Below, piece after piece: positions 2,392 through 7,181 of a stretch of DNA of 33,788 nucleotides. The DNA lies in the NCBI GenBank assembly GCA_020060625.1, contig JAGUZU010000043.1, forward strand, positions 1 through 33,788, given 5' to 3'. Made by a program: the position numbers and the translations under genes. Within the stretch, counting starts at the first letter, position 1; every line of letters starts with the position of its first letter. Under the pieces are notes generated by a model that was not told the DNA's origin, made no database searches, and worked only from the letters and a program-made list of their open reading frames with translations. This DNA comes from Anaerolineales bacterium. GTDB lineage: Bacteria > Chloroflexota > Anaerolineae > Anaerolineales > Villigracilaceae.

Positions 2392-5300
2392 TCAGGGTGA
2401 GGCGCCGTTGAGTTGACGAAGCACATCCAGCAGTTTTGCCGTCCAGATTTCCTCCTTCGTCAACGTAATCCAATATTGACTTTTTCCTCCCCGCACGCCA
2501 TTCGGCAGATCAGGCAGGCGCTTCGGCTCCGACCCGTCGGCTGACGCGGGATACCGAAGCAGGATCTGCCCCGATTCCCAACTAACCGATGTCAGCCCCG
2601 CTTTTTCGGCGCGGAGTTTGACGCGCATTTGATAGAGCAGGTTTTGCGTCATCTCCGGCAGTTGACCGAACCTATCGCGAAATTCCGAGCCGAGCGCGTC
2701 GAGTTCGGTTTCGTCGCGCAGGTCCGCGATGCGGCGGTAGAGGCGCAGGCGCAAATCCTGGTCGGGGATGTAGTCGGCGGGGATGCCGACGGCGAGCGGG
2801 AGGTCTACATTAACAGGGATAGAAAGTGGGAAGTGGAAAGTGGAAAAGGCGCCTTCCAACTTTCCACTTTCTACTTTCAGCATATCCGATGCAATTCTTC
2901 TCAAGCGCCTCACCGCATCCGCGAGCATCCTTGTATAAAGATGAAACCCGACGGATTGAATGAATCCATGCTGGCGCGTGCCGAGCAATTCGCCGGCGCC
3001 GCGGATTTCAAGGTCGCGCATGGCAATCGAATACCCCGCGCCAAGTTGTGTGTTTTCGGCGATCACTTCCAGCCGCTGCTGCCCGTCCATGGTCGGCGTC
3101 AGTTTGTTGTGGCGGAAGAAATACGCATACGCGCGCATCGCGCCGCGTCCCACGCGCCCGCGCAGTTGATAGAGCTGCGCCAAGCCGAAGGTGTCGGCGC
3201 GATCCACGATAAGAGTATTGGCGTTGGGAATATCCAAGCCTGATTCGATGATGGTGGTGGAAAGCAGGATGTCAATCTCGCCGTTCGTGAAGCGATGCAT
3301 TACCGCCGAAAGTTGAGATTCAGGCATCTGACCATGACCAATGTCAATCCGCGCTTCAGGGACGAGTTTCTCCAAATGCGCTTTCATTGCATCAATCGTC
3401 TGCACGCGGTTGTGAACGAAGAAGACCTGTCCGCCGCGCTCCAGTTCGCGCAGGATGGACTGGCGCACCAAACGCGGCGAATACGGTCCGACGTGGGTGA
3501 TGATGGGCAGGCGTTCCTCGGGCGGCGTGTTGAGGTTGGAAATGTCGCGGACGCCCGTCAGCGCCGTGTAGAGCGTGCGCGGAATCGGCGTGGCAGTGAG
3601 CGTGAGTACATCCACTTCGGTGCGGAGTTTCTTGAGATGCTCCTTGTGCGTCACGCCGAAGCGCTGCTCCTCGTCAATGACGACCAACCCCAAATCCTTG
3701 AACACAACATCGGATGAAATGAGACGATGCGTCCCAATAACGATGTCCACTTCGCCGACGGCAAGTTTGTACAAAATCTCGGTCTGCTCGCGCGGCGTGC
3801 GGAAGCGCGAAAGCATTTCCACTTTGACGGGAAAGGCGGCAAGACGTTGGGAGAAGGTCTCGAAGTGCTGCTGCGCGAGAACCGTCGTCGGCACGAGAAC
3901 GGCGGCTTGCCTCCCGCTCATCACAGATTTAAATGCGGCGCGTAATGCGACTTCGGTCTTGCCGTAACCCACATCGCCGCACAAAAGGCGGTCCATCGGG
4001 CGGGCGCGTTCCATGTCGCGTTTGATGTCTGCGAGGGCGCGTTTCTGGTCTTCGGTTTCGACGTAGGGAAAACTATCTTCAAGTTCCTTTTGCCACGCCG
4101 AATCGGGCGCAAACGAAAATCCTTCCACCACCTGACGACGCGCGTACAGGTCGAGCAAATCCTCGGCGACCTTCTGCACCGCCTCCTTAACCCGCGACTT
4201 GGTCTCCGCCCACGCCTGCCCGCCAAGATTATCCAGAGACGGCTTGCCGCCGTCCGCGCCGACGTAACGCGTGAGCCGGTCCGCCTGATGGACAGGGACG
4301 TAGAGGATGTCTCCGCGGTCATATTCAACGGCAAGATACTCCCGCTCGTGTCCGTCCAACTGTCGCTGAATCAGACCCGCGAAGCGTCCGATGCCATGAT
4401 CCACGTGGACAACGTAATCGCCCGACTGCAAATCCGCATACAACGACTCAGGCGTATCCGCCGCTTTGCGCTGACGCGCGCGCGGCTGCGGACGCTCCCA
4501 CCCGAAGACTTCGGAATCAGTGATTAAGTGAATAGTGAATAGCGAATCGGTCTTAAGGGTAAAACCCTCTGAAAGCGAGGCTTCGGTAAATTCGAGATTG
4601 GGATGTTCGGAGGTTGGATAGTGTTCGCTCCAAAGTTCGCGCAAACGCTGCGCCTGGCGCGAGATAATGAAAACTTGTTCGCCGCTTTCGACAATCGGGG
4701 CAAGATACTCAATGAACGGCTTGAGCCGTCCGCCAAAACGTTCGTCGTGACCGAAGAGCGAAGCGAGATCGCCCTCACCCCCATCCCCTTTCCCTGAGGG
4801 AGAGGGGCGTAGGGGTGAGGGACGATGCGTCGAGTGCCCCAATTCCAAGTGTACAAATTCCCCGAGCTCGTCGTTCAACTCCGACCACGGCACATAAGGC
4901 ATCGGGAAGTCCGTCGAAAGCGTGCCTTCTGCAATGCTCTCCTGCCGAAACTTGACTGCCTGCTCTTCGACCTCGTTCGCCATTGCATCAATCAGGCTGA
5001 GGTCATCCACCAGCACGAGCGTTTTCTGCGGAAGGTAATCAAGTAATGAAGCGGGCTGTCCATGCAGCAATGGAATATGAAATTCGGAAACGTTTTCGTC
5101 GTAAGTCGGATTGTCAATCCGACCTACGAATTCGCGCGCGGGTGTGACGAGAATATCGTTTAGTTTTTCGATGGTGCGCTGGGTGGCGGGGTCGAAGCGG
5201 CGGATGGTTTCGATCTCGTCGCCGAAGAAATCGAGGCGGACAGGGTTCGCCTCCGTCGGCGTCCACACGTCGAGGATGCCGCCGCGATGCGAGAATTGAC

Positions 5301-5832
5301 CCGGCTCGAGGACGGTGTTCACCCGCTGATAACCAATCCTCGCCCACTCGCGCATCAGAACATCGGGTTGGCTGGTCTGGTTTACTGACAGTTTTTTACA
5401 CGCCTTGAGAAAATCCCGCCGCGGCAGGGTGCGCGTCATCAGCGAGCGGGCGGACGCGATAATGATGGGCGGGGTTTCGGGTTTTTTAGCAAACGGCAAA
5501 TGGAAAGCGGAAAGCGCCGTGAGCGTTTGTAGCCTTTCGCGGCGTGTCGTCGCGCCCCAGCCGGCTTCTTCATAAAAGAGCGGATTCGGTTCCGCAAACA
5601 AATATCGCGGCGACCTGACCCAGAATCCAAGCTCGTCGAACATCGCCAGCGCATGGTCGGCGCGGTCCGTGATGAGCAGGATGGGTTGGTTGAAGTCCGC
5701 ATGAAGCGCTGCGAGGATGGGCAAACGCGCGGAACGCGGCAACCCAAGTCCGGGGATGAGGTTGCGTGTGTTGAGTTCGTTCAGCAGACGCTGATACGGC
5801 GGGAGGGCGCGAAGGTGGGAGAGGAGTTGCAT
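2392..5832 (-). CDS. mfd: Transcription-repair coupling factor Mfd
   Basis: The 1146-residue protein removes RNA polymerase stalled at DNA lesions and recruits UvrA to start repair. Domains in order: UvrB-like N-terminal region (about 1-420); CarD-like RNA-polymerase-interacting domain with the [12 protein letters not shown] stretch (about 470-540); superfamily 2 translocase with Walker A GDVGYGKT (619-626), DEEQ box (720-723) and motif [10 protein letters not shown] (889-896); C-terminal TRCF domain (about 1005-1140). Total length is close to E. coli Mfd, but three loops carry foreign-looking peptides, at residues 235-245, 338-354 and 985-1004. Each coincides with a palindromic DNA element. 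A fourth, at 429-435, is a heptamer track. Conserved motifs are intact, so the protein is probably functional. The ATG has no clear Shine-Dalgarno. pth lies 81 bases upstream on the same strand. Confidence 0.97.
2822..2878. repeat. In-frame palindrome built of heptamers inside mfd
   Basis: The left arm contains AAGTGGG-AAGTGGA-AAGTGGA and the right arm (from 2854) nearly complements it, with one extra base and one mismatch, around an AAGGCGCC centre. It encodes Mfd residues 985-1004, between the translocase and the TRCF domain, where Mfd proteins normally have a short variable linker. Reading frame is kept. Confidence 0.7.
4528..4548. repeat. Three in-frame heptamers inside mfd
   Basis: GTGAATA-GTGAATA-GCGAATC, three units of seven bases, make exactly seven codons (Mfd residues 429-435), just before the conserved ITDSEVFG stretch. 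A 21-base addition cannot shift the frame. Similar heptamer tracks occur outside coding DNA at 5840-5909 and 6497-6538. Confidence 0.5.
4772..4821. repeat. In-frame 50-bp CCCTCACCCC palindrome inside mfd
   Basis: The element starts CCCTCACCCC and ends GGGGTGAGGG, with CCCCTTTCCCT facing AGGGAGAGGGG around a short centre. Elements of this look are widely dispersed between genes in many bacterial genomes. Here it is translated as the low-complexity Pro/Ser then Gly/Lys stretch of Mfd residues 338-354, in a poorly conserved part of the N-terminal half. Confidence 0.75.
5099..5129. repeat. In-frame 31-bp palindrome inside mfd
   Basis: TCGTAAGTCGGATTG, a single central T, then CAATCCGACCTACGA: 15-base arms with one mismatch. 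On the minus strand it encodes Mfd residues 235-245 (within [12 protein letters not shown]), directly after the conserved PARE motif, in a loop. It shares no sequence with the other two palindromes in this gene. Confidence 0.75.
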
Positions 5833-5839
5833 GGGGGGC

Positions 5840-5909
5840 GAGTTACGAGTTACAGGTTACAGGTTACAGGTTGCAGGTTGCGGGTTATGAGTTGCGTTTT
5901 GCGTTTCGC
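5840..5909. repeat. Ten degenerate heptamers filling the pth-mfd spacer
   Basis: Seventy bases divide exactly into ten heptamers: GAGTTAC twice, AGGTTAC twice, AGGTTGC twice, then GGGTTAT, GAGTTGC, GTTTTGC and GTTTCGC. GTT, or GTT with one change, is kept in register throughout. The track occupies almost the whole 81-base gap between the pth stop (5914) and the mfd start (5832), so any mfd ribosome-binding site would have to lie in or beside it. Confidence 0.85.
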
Positions 5910-5913
5910 ACAA

Positions 5914-6492
5914 TCATTCCACCGCCCCGTTGTACTTATTCATCGCCGCGTTCAAACCGCTCATCACGAATTCGAGGGCGGCATCGGCGGCACGGTTGAG
6001 AACATCGGGCAGGAGTTTGAAGTCATCCTTCGAGAAATTTTGCAGGACGTAATCCTTCGGGTCCATGCGCCCGGGCGGGCGTCCAATGCCAAGTCGCAAG
6101 CGCGGAAAATCTTTCGTGCCAAGCAATTGGATCGTATTCGCCATGCCGCGCTGACCGCCCGGTCCGCCTGTGGGGCGGATACGGATCGTGCCAAAAGGCA
6201 AATCCAAATCATCGTGCGCGACGAGCAAATGTGTTTGCGGAATTTTGTAGAAATGCAACAGCCCCTGTACCGAGTGACCGGAGAGATTCATGTATGTTTG
6301 CGGCTTGGCAAGGATGATCTTTTGTTCTTCGTACAACGCCGAAGTGACAATGGCTTTGGATTGCAGCTTCATGCCGCGCGCATCCAAACGGACAGCGAGC
6401 AGGTCAATCAACATGAAGCCAATGTTATGACGGGTGTCTTTGTATTCGCGCCCCGGATTGCCGAGACCGATGATGAGGTAGGGGTTAGTCAT
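5914..6492 (-). CDS. pth: Peptidyl-tRNA hydrolase
   Basis: The 192-residue protein cleaves peptidyl-tRNA that drops off ribosomes, recycling the tRNA in the cytoplasm. The family signature is clear: LIIGLGNPG near the start with Asn12, the catalytic His22 in TRHNIGF, YMNLSG with Asn69, and HDDLDLPFG with Asp94. The GGQRGM stretch replaces the GGHNG form of E. coli, a variant I recall in other bacteria. Length matches the family. It reads in the same direction as mfd. Both flanking spacers are filled by heptamer repeats (5840-5909 downstream, 6497-6538 upstream). No clear Shine-Dalgarno precedes the ATG because the heptamer track begins five bases away. Confidence 0.97.
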   Translation of the reverse strand: MTNPYLIIGLGNPGREYKDTRHNIGFMLIDLLAVRLDARGMKLQSKAIVTSALYEEQKIILAKPQTYMNLSGHSVQGLLHFYKIPQTHLLVAHDDLDLPFGTIRIRPTGGPGGQRGMANTIQLLGTKDFPRLRLGIGRPPGRMDPKDYVLQNFSKDDFKLLPDVLNRAADAALEFVMSGLNAAMNKYNGAVE

Positions 6493-6496
6493 GTGT

Positions 6497-6538
6497 CAAG
6501 TTCCAAGTGTCAGGTTGCAAGTGTCAGGTTGCAAGTCA
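6497..6538. repeat. Six degenerate heptamers upstream of pth
   Basis: Forty-two bases divide into CAAGTTC, CAAGTGT, CAGGTTG, CAAGTGT, CAGGTTG and CAAGTCA. All start with CAAGT or CAGGT. The track fills the 50-base gap between the pth start (6492) and the stop of the upstream gene (6543). Sequence differs from the 5840-5909 track, but the seven-base period is the same. Confidence 0.8.
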
Positions 6539-6542
6539 GGTG

Positions 6543-7181
6543 TCAGGCGCTCCTCCGCAGGCGGAGGAGGAGAGAGATAAAAATGAAAGCGCCGAGAATG
6601 GCGAGGGCGCTTTTGCCAAAGATGGAGAGAATGGAAGTGGTGGTAAGAGAAGCGGGGTTGGGCGGCAGCGGCGTGGACGTGGGGAGCGCTGCGATTGGCG
6701 TTGGATCGCTGAATGACGACTCCCCGCTGGAAGGTTCGTTCAATGGTTGGAAATTGAAATCTGCAAATGTTTGCGTCGGCTGCGGGGTGGGAAGCGGCTC
6801 GTCGTTGCGGACTTTCAAATCGGTGACGAGGGCATCCTGAAACGAGCCGTCTTGCAGGAAGACGCGCAGCCGCAGGCTGTAATCGCCATCGCTGATGGAT
6901 GTCGTGTCCCAGGCGGCGATGGCGGGACCCGCCGTCGGTTGAGAGAAGGTTTGGATGGCGAACCAGTTATCGGCGGAGTCTGAGGCGCCCCCTGAAGGGG
7001 ATGCATAGGCGAATGCCAGTTCAGCGGATTCGAATCCCGGAACGTCCATCCCACCTGTGATTTCCACCCGTCCGCGCAAAGTGTCACCCGCCTGCGGGGA
7101 GGATATCGAGACTATGGTTTCCTGGAAGAGCAAGGCGAAAATCAAAATGGCTTTGAGCATGGCAACCGTTAAGTTTAACAT
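6543..7181 (-). CDS. Exported membrane-anchored protein with Ig-like fold
   Basis: The 212-residue protein has an N-terminal signal segment (MLKAILIFALLF, from residue 8), a beta-rich domain (about 22-125) with VSISSPQAGDTLRG and SDGDYSLRLRVFL, a Pro/Thr-rich linker (about 130-178), and one C-terminal membrane helix (about 183-205) followed by Arg residues. This is the plan of a cell-surface protein held by a C-terminal anchor. The domain resembles Ig-like modules that describe what is gained or lost on modification (Big/Gmad2-like), but I cannot name the family. The start could be the second Met (7160); neither has a clear ribosome-binding site. The final codons lie in a perfect inverted repeat (6550-6569). 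It is the first gene of the pth-mfd strand group. Confidence 0.7.
   Translation of the reverse strand: MLNLTVAMLKAILIFALLFQETIVSISSPQAGDTLRGRVEITGGMDVPGFESAELAFAYASPSGGASDSADNWFAIQTFSQPTAGPAIAAWDTTSISDGDYSLRLRVFLQDGSFQDALVTDLKVRNDEPLPTPQPTQTFADFNFQPLNEPSSGESSFSDPTPIAALPTSTPLPPNPASLTTTSILSIFGKSALAILGAFIFISLLLRLRRSA
6550..6569. repeat. Perfect hairpin at the 3' end of the surface-protein gene
   Basis: CTCCTCCGC, AG, GCGGAGGAG: a 9-bp GC-rich stem with a two-base spacer, inside the last codons (LLLRLRRSA) of the 6543-7181 gene. No U-tract follows on the minus strand; the heptamer track begins beyond the stop. It could slow transcription or be another small palindromic repeat. Confidence 0.45.

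Follow-up and report, generated by a model that had tools for sequence, protein, structure and literature searches.

The window, by which is meant the whole 33,788-nucleotide stretch of Anaerolineales DNA analysed here (an entire contig), carries on its reverse strand two neighbouring genes which we take to be pth and mfd, with a track of short tandem repeats in the spacer at either end of pth. Among named records, the nearest that contain mfd are MAGs assigned to Chloroflexi and Anaerolineales, and one bears the label Candidatus Villigracilaceae. The features considered below are:

2392-5832, reverse strand: mfd (transcription-repair coupling factor), 1146 aa
2822-2878, no strand assigned: palindrome of heptamers within mfd (arm of GAAAGTG type, loop, arm of CTTTCCA type), encoding a 19-residue linker of Mfd
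4527-4547, reverse strand: weak heptamer stretch in mfd, AGTGAAT-like in three copies (score 12, equalled by 12 of 200 shuffles), in a variable Mfd segment
5489-5516, reverse strand: weak heptamer stretch in mfd, around residues 106-115 (score 13, equalled by 4 of 200 shuffles)
5839-5909, reverse strand: track 1, about ten heptamers, in the sense direction GTAACCT, GCAACCT, GTAACTC and similar, from the lag-7 score and TRF
5914-6492, reverse strand: pth (peptidyl-tRNA hydrolase), 192 aa, with matches in 58 of 61 genomes
6493-6542, reverse strand: pth upstream spacer, 50 bases, composed as 7 + 3 x 14 + 1
6497-6538, reverse strand: track 2, about three copies of a 14-base unit, from the lag-14 score, TRF and relatives

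Track 1 covers 71 of the 81 bases of the pth-mfd spacer, and positions 5840-5909 divide exactly into ten heptamers (GAGTTAC, GAGTTAC, AGGTTAC, AGGTTAC, AGGTTGC, AGGTTGC, GGGTTAT, GAGTTGC, GTTTTGC and GTTTCGC). At lag 7 the track (5839-5909) reaches a score of 40; the best lag-7 score of each of 200 order-2 Markov shuffles of the whole window had a mean of 9.1 and a maximum of 16. Track 2 covers 42 of the 50 bases of the upstream spacer, and the original prediction was right that repeats occupy most of both spacers and that 6497-6538, too, can be divided exactly, into six heptamers. However, the lag-7 score of track 2 is only 13, a value equalled by 4 of 200 shuffles, while its lag-14 score is 27 (shuffle maximum 14), and it is therefore better described as a 14-base repeat. 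TRF reports the 14-mer GTGTCAGGTTGCAA in 3.1 copies with a 93% match.

The gene-proximal copy of track 2 resembles the leader CTTGGAACTTGACA of relatives that have no track, and a GGAA core resembling a ribosome-binding site is kept only in this copy, the two added copies reading GCAA. In L169, the locus with the most similar Pth (88.5% identical), the pth leader has 22 bases, CACCTGAAACTTGGAACCTCCC; the leader of L170 has 17 bases, CACTTGGAACTTGACAC, and those of L118 and L123 have 22, with the 3' end CTTGGAACTTGAC[AG]C. Since the 50 bases of the window equal 22 + 2 x 14, i.e. two additional 14-mers compared with L169, track 2 probably grew from the native pth leader. A 21-base leader unit occurs once in L130 (31 bases) and about twice in L131 (51 bases), and the leaders of further relatives contain other words (ACTGACC, TCTCCAG/TTACCAA, TTCATCC) or none. 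In some relatives' spacers 8-mers (AATTCTCT) and 7-mers are mixed. A short palindrome, CTCCTCCGC/GCGGAGGAG, is found at window positions 6548-6575, at the extreme end of the gene upstream of pth.

A period-7 track with a score of at least 12 lies within 140 bases upstream of pth in 22 of 73 pth loci, in the pth-mfd spacer in 12 of the 62 that are measurable, and in either place in 27; the 140 bases take in the end of the upstream gene, a few of the loci perhaps come from one genome or from nearly identical ones, and the upstream track of the window itself, with a score of 11, is not counted. For the 43 loci with a Pth identity of at least 79%, the corresponding numbers are 12, 8 of 37 measurable, and 14. 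Many relatives have an open pth frame with a track in neither spacer. Across relatives, the orthologous pth and mfd spacers differ in tracks, words and lengths; identical track lengths in different species, an outcome regarded beforehand as contrary to amplification, were not found. These differences do not support the proposal that track length tunes the output of pth and mfd, and neither do the presence of similar repeats in Mfd loops and the unchanged GGAA core of the gene-proximal copy. L118 and L123, which are 93.6% identical overall, differ strongly in the pth-mfd spacer: in one locus the spacer holds a heptamer hairpin, and in the other it is longer and holds another palindromic repeat, which contains CCCGAAGGGATG.

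Repeats are also found inside the mfd reading frame. The palindrome at 2822-2878 has arms at 2822-2841 and 2859-2878 and an RNA fold of -33.4 kcal/mol, and the linker that it encodes is a variable segment of the Mfd alignment. It had been described as built of heptamers, and two heptamer stretches are indeed present; they score 14 and 13 (equalled by 2 and 4 of 200 shuffles), and the element is an inverted repeat within the frame. In the alignment of 67 Mfd sequences, the window's included, variable segments at residues ~336-355, 429-441 and 986-1006 hold short, repetitive-looking peptides that differ between species (e.g. NLQSPVSNLQSPI, SDQSSV and KVESGK). Tracks of relatives lie near base 305-355 of mfd (main unit AAATGGT at 10 loci, AAAGTGG at 5 and AAGTGGT at 2), a first site at which the word may be common by descent; the region of residues 106-115 has heptamer tracks in relatives as well as in the window. 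Others lie at residues 413-435 (AATTACC, five loci; in L116 at 476) and at residues 984-1009 (AAGGATG, four loci). As period-7 DNA occurs at variable Mfd segments, the process would act on DNA wherever insertions are tolerated.

Two further palindromes were observed in the frame. An imperfect C-rich/G-rich palindrome at window positions 4780-4830 encodes a 20-residue loop that is shorter in most aligned relatives, with similar Ser/Pro/Gly-rich stretches in L095, L102 and L116; the other, GTAAGTCGGATTGTCAATCCGACCTAC, is at 5100-5130.

The period was surveyed in the window plus 80 pieces of the host genome (1.317 Mb together) and in 20 fresh pieces (0.290 Mb), out of a genome of 3.668 Mb; contigs C21, C126 and C92 were chosen for earlier hits, while the fresh pieces were chosen by contig number. 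The lag detector counts tracks at a score of at least 14, and the scoring of tracks and hairpins and the cut-offs are our own. The first sample contains 83 period-7 tracks, compared with 20 of period 8 and 0-13 for any other period between 2 and 30 that is not a multiple of 7; periods 14, 21 and 28 give 44, 25 and 10 tracks, respectively. One order-2 shuffle of this sample, the single one made, contains 0 period-7 tracks. In the fresh stretches there are 19 period-7 tracks, a density equal to that of the first sample, and the next period outside the series is again 8, with 7 tracks. The central claim of the original prediction, that amplification of seven-base units is at work in this genome, is therefore borne out: compared with other periods, period 7 is strongly enriched, intergenic DNA included. 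Period 8 is the strongest host period outside the 7 series.

Compositional chance is rejected by the shuffles, and codon periodicity because 7 is not a multiple of 3. An assembly artefact is likewise rejected; the tracks occur in other assemblies too, including the one-contig genomes G021 and G026.

The loci of 71 relatives (1.209 Mb) contain 112 period-7 and 23 period-8 tracks, and four genomes of the same genus have 9 period-7 tracks in 320 kb. Twelve genomes from other families of the order and class (193 kb) have 2 tracks of period 7, with 8 of period 6 and 11 of period 12, and five stretches from elsewhere in the phylum (100 kb) have 15 of period 7, all from G093. No period-7 track was found in 40 kb of the genome G223, in six mfd loci from outside the Chloroflexota (104 kb) or in 200 kb of E. 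coli K-12. Of 301 genomes from the phylum, 20 have the word family RGTTRMA in three copies: 8 of the 17 that belong to the host's family and 12 of the other 284. On the track counts across the host, its relatives and other genomes of the phylum, the period-7 excess is strong in the host and its kin and patchy beyond. The 15 tracks of G093, a member of a distant family of the same phylum, lie within the 20 kb of locus L216 and include long TCATCCT/TCATTCT arrays.

By density the heptamer tracks are mainly intergenic (45 in 151 kb of host spacers, compared with 38 in 1165 kb of called genes), while by count nearly half lie within called genes. Tracks are present in 38 of 725 co-directional, 2 of 101 convergent and 1 of 103 divergent host spacers; in relatives the numbers are 27 of 515, 8 of 140 and 4 of 149, and in the fresh host pieces 8 of 149, 3 of 27 and 0 of 30. 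In 20 fresh same-genus stretches they are 11 of 207, 2 of 33 and 0 of 40; four of these stretches (G131, G096) belong to contigs where hits were already known, and two were located at pth. Some of these spacer classes are wrong, since the genes were called by our own codon-usage script; the 'divergent' spacers of L125 and L161 are an example, as L181 and L195, with the same pth leaders, have an upstream frame that is co-directional with pth.

The vocabulary of the tracks is restricted. The 101 host tracks have 49 distinct main units, while a null model in which bases were permuted within units gave 90 on average and never fewer than 78 over 1000 draws; only this test, on the host genome, is used, and coding tracks of relatives were left out because orthology (the same Mfd positions) inflates the result. 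Adjacent copies differ by 1.59 mismatches per 7 bases and copies at a distance of at least 4 by 2.6-2.7, the differences between neighbouring copies comprising 343 transitions and 277 transversions. Across 12 pairs of relatives (79-92% identity), indels in or beside tracks are of mixed lengths, 7, 14 and 28 occurring without dominating; such divergence is too great for a clean comparison, and tracks are split by the aligner. The commonest units (AACCTTC, AAAGTGG, AAAGAGG and AATATCG) contain at most GG or CC, short of the runs of at least three Gs per unit that characterise G-quadruplex-forming heptamers. A few other units do carry GGG; 4 of 240 tracks, for example, have AATAGGG as their main unit.

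We lean, with moderate confidence, towards the tracks being products of a mutational process and not regulatory devices. Short, often near-repetitive stretches, such as the pth leader, would be duplicated in place by slipped-strand synthesis in steps of 7 bases, and also of 14 and 21; the copies would then drift by substitution, and renewed slippage would partly homogenise them. Less often, the nascent strand (as a rule the strand with the G-richer array) would fold back and copy itself, adding an inverted array and so producing a hairpin whose 5' arm is rich in G. Tracks would persist at sites that tolerate insertions, either the stop-to-start gap between co-directional genes or a flexible part of a protein, as in Mfd. 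Stepwise local duplication together with fold-back copying fits the evidence, tolerance deciding survival; slippage and fold-back as enzymatic events, and the neutrality of their products, are what we infer from it. A reason for the number seven may be that it matches the DNA segment held by the polymerase, an idea already published; the preference of bacterial repeats for seven has been an open remark since 2007 (both points via excerpts of PMC4692102 and PMC4679880). Slippage alone accounts for neither the shortness of the word list nor the G-first rule. The restricted words count against slippage because a sequence-blind process does not predict them; the mixed indel lengths between relatives, the scarcity of period 7 in other families of the order and class, and a polarity of unproven cause also count against the slippage and fold-back account.

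Some tracks run on into their own reverse complement. Among tracks with a score of at least 12, overlap with a palindrome is seen in 16 of 62 intergenic and 8 of 60 coding tracks of the host (fresh pieces: 7 of 17 and 0 of 6), in 9 of 60 and 6 of 99 tracks of the relatives, and in 2 of 17 and 4 of 20 of the fresh same-genus stretches. Such hairpins could instead be functional RNA elements, selected in operons as terminators, attenuators or stability elements, with the heptamers a by-product of the growth of the arms. Consistent with this, inverted repeats are found where transcripts end or cross between genes (in 24 of 84 convergent but only 2 of 93 divergent host spacers, with 56 of 552 co-directional), several of the track hairpins have stable folds (about -25 to -36 kcal/mol), and co-directional tracks sit close to both genes: the median distances from stop to track and from track to start are 6.5 and 11.5 bases in 40 host spacers, and 8.5 and 11 bases in 24 spacers of relatives. 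However, few track hairpins have the T-run of an intrinsic terminator, with at least five Ts in the next eight bases in 2 of 10 cases in the host and 0 of 4 in relatives; two could still be terminators. In convergent spacers, where the better side was scored and the hairpins are hence favoured, T-runs follow 9 of 23 host hairpins and 24 of 47 in relatives. The scarcity is not peculiar to tracks in the host, since trackless co-directional hairpins have a T-run in 6 of 39 cases there (32 of 69 in relatives). Similar palindromes also occur within called genes, including mfd, most tracks have no palindrome at all (46 of 62 in host intergenic DNA), and an Rfam search of the window at gathering scores returned no family match. 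Selected RNA hairpins are thus possible but unlikely as the explanation of the tracks.

The palindromes have a marked polarity. Of 33 track palindromes, each counted once, 27 have a 5' arm richer in G than in C, 2 have the reverse and 4 have equal numbers; those of relatives may include some that are common by descent. The G-richer and C-richer 5' arms split 13-0 in host intergenic, 4-1 in host coding, 6-1 in relatives' intergenic and 4-0 in relatives' coding tracks. With the fresh data (9, 0 and one tied, n=10) the pooled count is 36 of 43 with the G-richer 5' arm, two opposite and five tied. Inverted repeats of trackless spacers are less skewed, 60 to 44 in the host and 111 to 53 in the relatives and same-genus genomes. 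The polarity is independent of the strand read, and therefore neither gene direction nor the direction of replication can explain it. In the arms of co-directional inverted repeats the best self-match is at lag 7, with 0.389 in the host (0.21-0.33 at other lags from 3 to 12) and 0.347 in relatives (0.19-0.31).

Convergently oriented pairs of heptamer arrays number 70 and 75 in two xanthomonads (Rehm and colleagues; excerpt of PMC4692102), and by analogy these may be read as the same G-first polarity. It could then be supposed that the restricted words, the G-first palindromes (36 of the 38 that are not tied) and the Xanthomonas pairs all come from one shared activity with a seven-base ruler, in which a G-rich array would fold back at its 3' end and be extended with itself as template. 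We regard this as a speculative and rather improbable step beyond slippage with fold-back; if true, several phyla would carry a repeat-building reaction with a defined step and a strand preference, not random slippage. In either case the polarity is a constraint for any mechanism.

Copying of arrays from locus to locus, by template switching between arrays or by a transposase of the Y1/RAYT type, would suit a restricted word list within one genome, and word-sharing pairs are more frequent between host tracks (4.8%) than between host and relatives (2.7%). The relatives' intergenic tracks, by contrast, show no excess of sharing within genomes (1 of 35 as against 32 of 1134 pairs, with 146 of 500 permutations giving at least as much), a weak test with few pairs; over all tracks of the relatives the figures are 5.9% and 5.0%, blurred by orthologous Mfd sites and by a permutation without the distance rule. 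The host has 7 matches to the Y1 transposase (PF01797). Across the 12 genomes looked at, however, its presence does not follow the tracks, as G093 and G199 have heptamer arrays in their stretches and 0 matches, while G026 has 5 matches and 1 track in 80 kb. With the growth of the pth leader looking local as well, dispersal is very unlikely to be the source of the arrays. REP/MITE-type palindromic elements were also considered and rejected; the 49 distinct units are not one dispersed sequence family.

Arrays on the mRNA leader that bind proteins of the S1, cold-shock, Csr or Rho type, the first three of which have been proposed for TAACTGA repeats in Beggiatoa (excerpt of PMC4679880), would be another way of giving the tracks a function. 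Co-directional tracks are indeed C-richer on the sense strand (C>G in 24 and G>C in 12 of 39 in the host, 22 and 9 of 32 in relatives), but the bias is modest, with 280 and 216 of all 527 co-directional spacers in the host and 236 and 150 of 402 in relatives, and words and lengths differ or are absent at orthologous genes, which makes this reading highly improbable.

Among the repeats of cyanobacteria known as STRR, the words are CCCCART, TTGGTCA and CAACAGT. The comparison with them in the original prediction was apt in kind, but the words differ: CCCCAAT is the main unit of 1 of 240 tracks and CCCCAGT, TTGGTCA and CAACAGT of none, and the closest named records are Chloroflexota. A heptamer excess, the polymerase-slippage idea and paired convergent G-rich heptamers are already in print for other bacteria, and the host repeats are a multi-word version of these known repeats; what looks distinctive here is the many words, the hairpins of fixed polarity in some tracks and the one run apparently grown from a gene's leader. 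In the literature on heptamer repeats in Chloroflexi, Anaerolineae and Villigracilis, as far as it was surveyed, the repeats of this clade are not described. With many words per genome, a probable case of leader growth and repeated invasion of the same protein segments, the clade is a natural test bed, and it gives warning that a heptamer track beside a start codon need not have a regulatory role.

Bacterial heptameric simple sequence repeats include the Xanthomonas word GGGAATC and the Nostoc word GGGGA(T/C)T, and, in the excerpt of PMC4692102, these agree with the host tracks in their period, in being mainly intergenic with few between divergent genes, and in varying in length and sequence among related species. 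They consist of one G-rich word per clade and have been studied for quadruplex formation; the host, unlike them, has dozens of words, the commonest without GGG, long-stem hairpins and probable growth from a native leader. The TAACTGA direct repeats of Beggiatoaceae, cyanobacteria and Bacteroidetes are, in the excerpt of PMC4679880, mostly intergenic, often just upstream of starts and sometimes in frames, as the host tracks are, but have a single favoured word, related words being rare as repeats; the host and relative samples contain 0 exact tandem pairs of TAACTGA, which is the main unit of 1 of 240 tracks. In the same phylum, the (GATAGRA)n satellites of Chloroflexus aurantiacus (excerpt of PMC6749651) are likewise heptamer-derived and scattered, with one word in 22 satellites; GATAGGA is the main unit of 1 of 240 tracks and GATAGAA of 0, with no exact tandem pair of either in the samples. 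Similar to the host hairpins is the P6b stem of the Nostoc trnL intron, which in the excerpt of PMC4476775 is made of the degenerate heptamers TDNGATT / NNTGAGT, changes in 7- and 14-base steps and has repeatedly had one word class replaced by the other; that stem is a single intron locus, whereas the host arrays occupy many spacers and protein segments.
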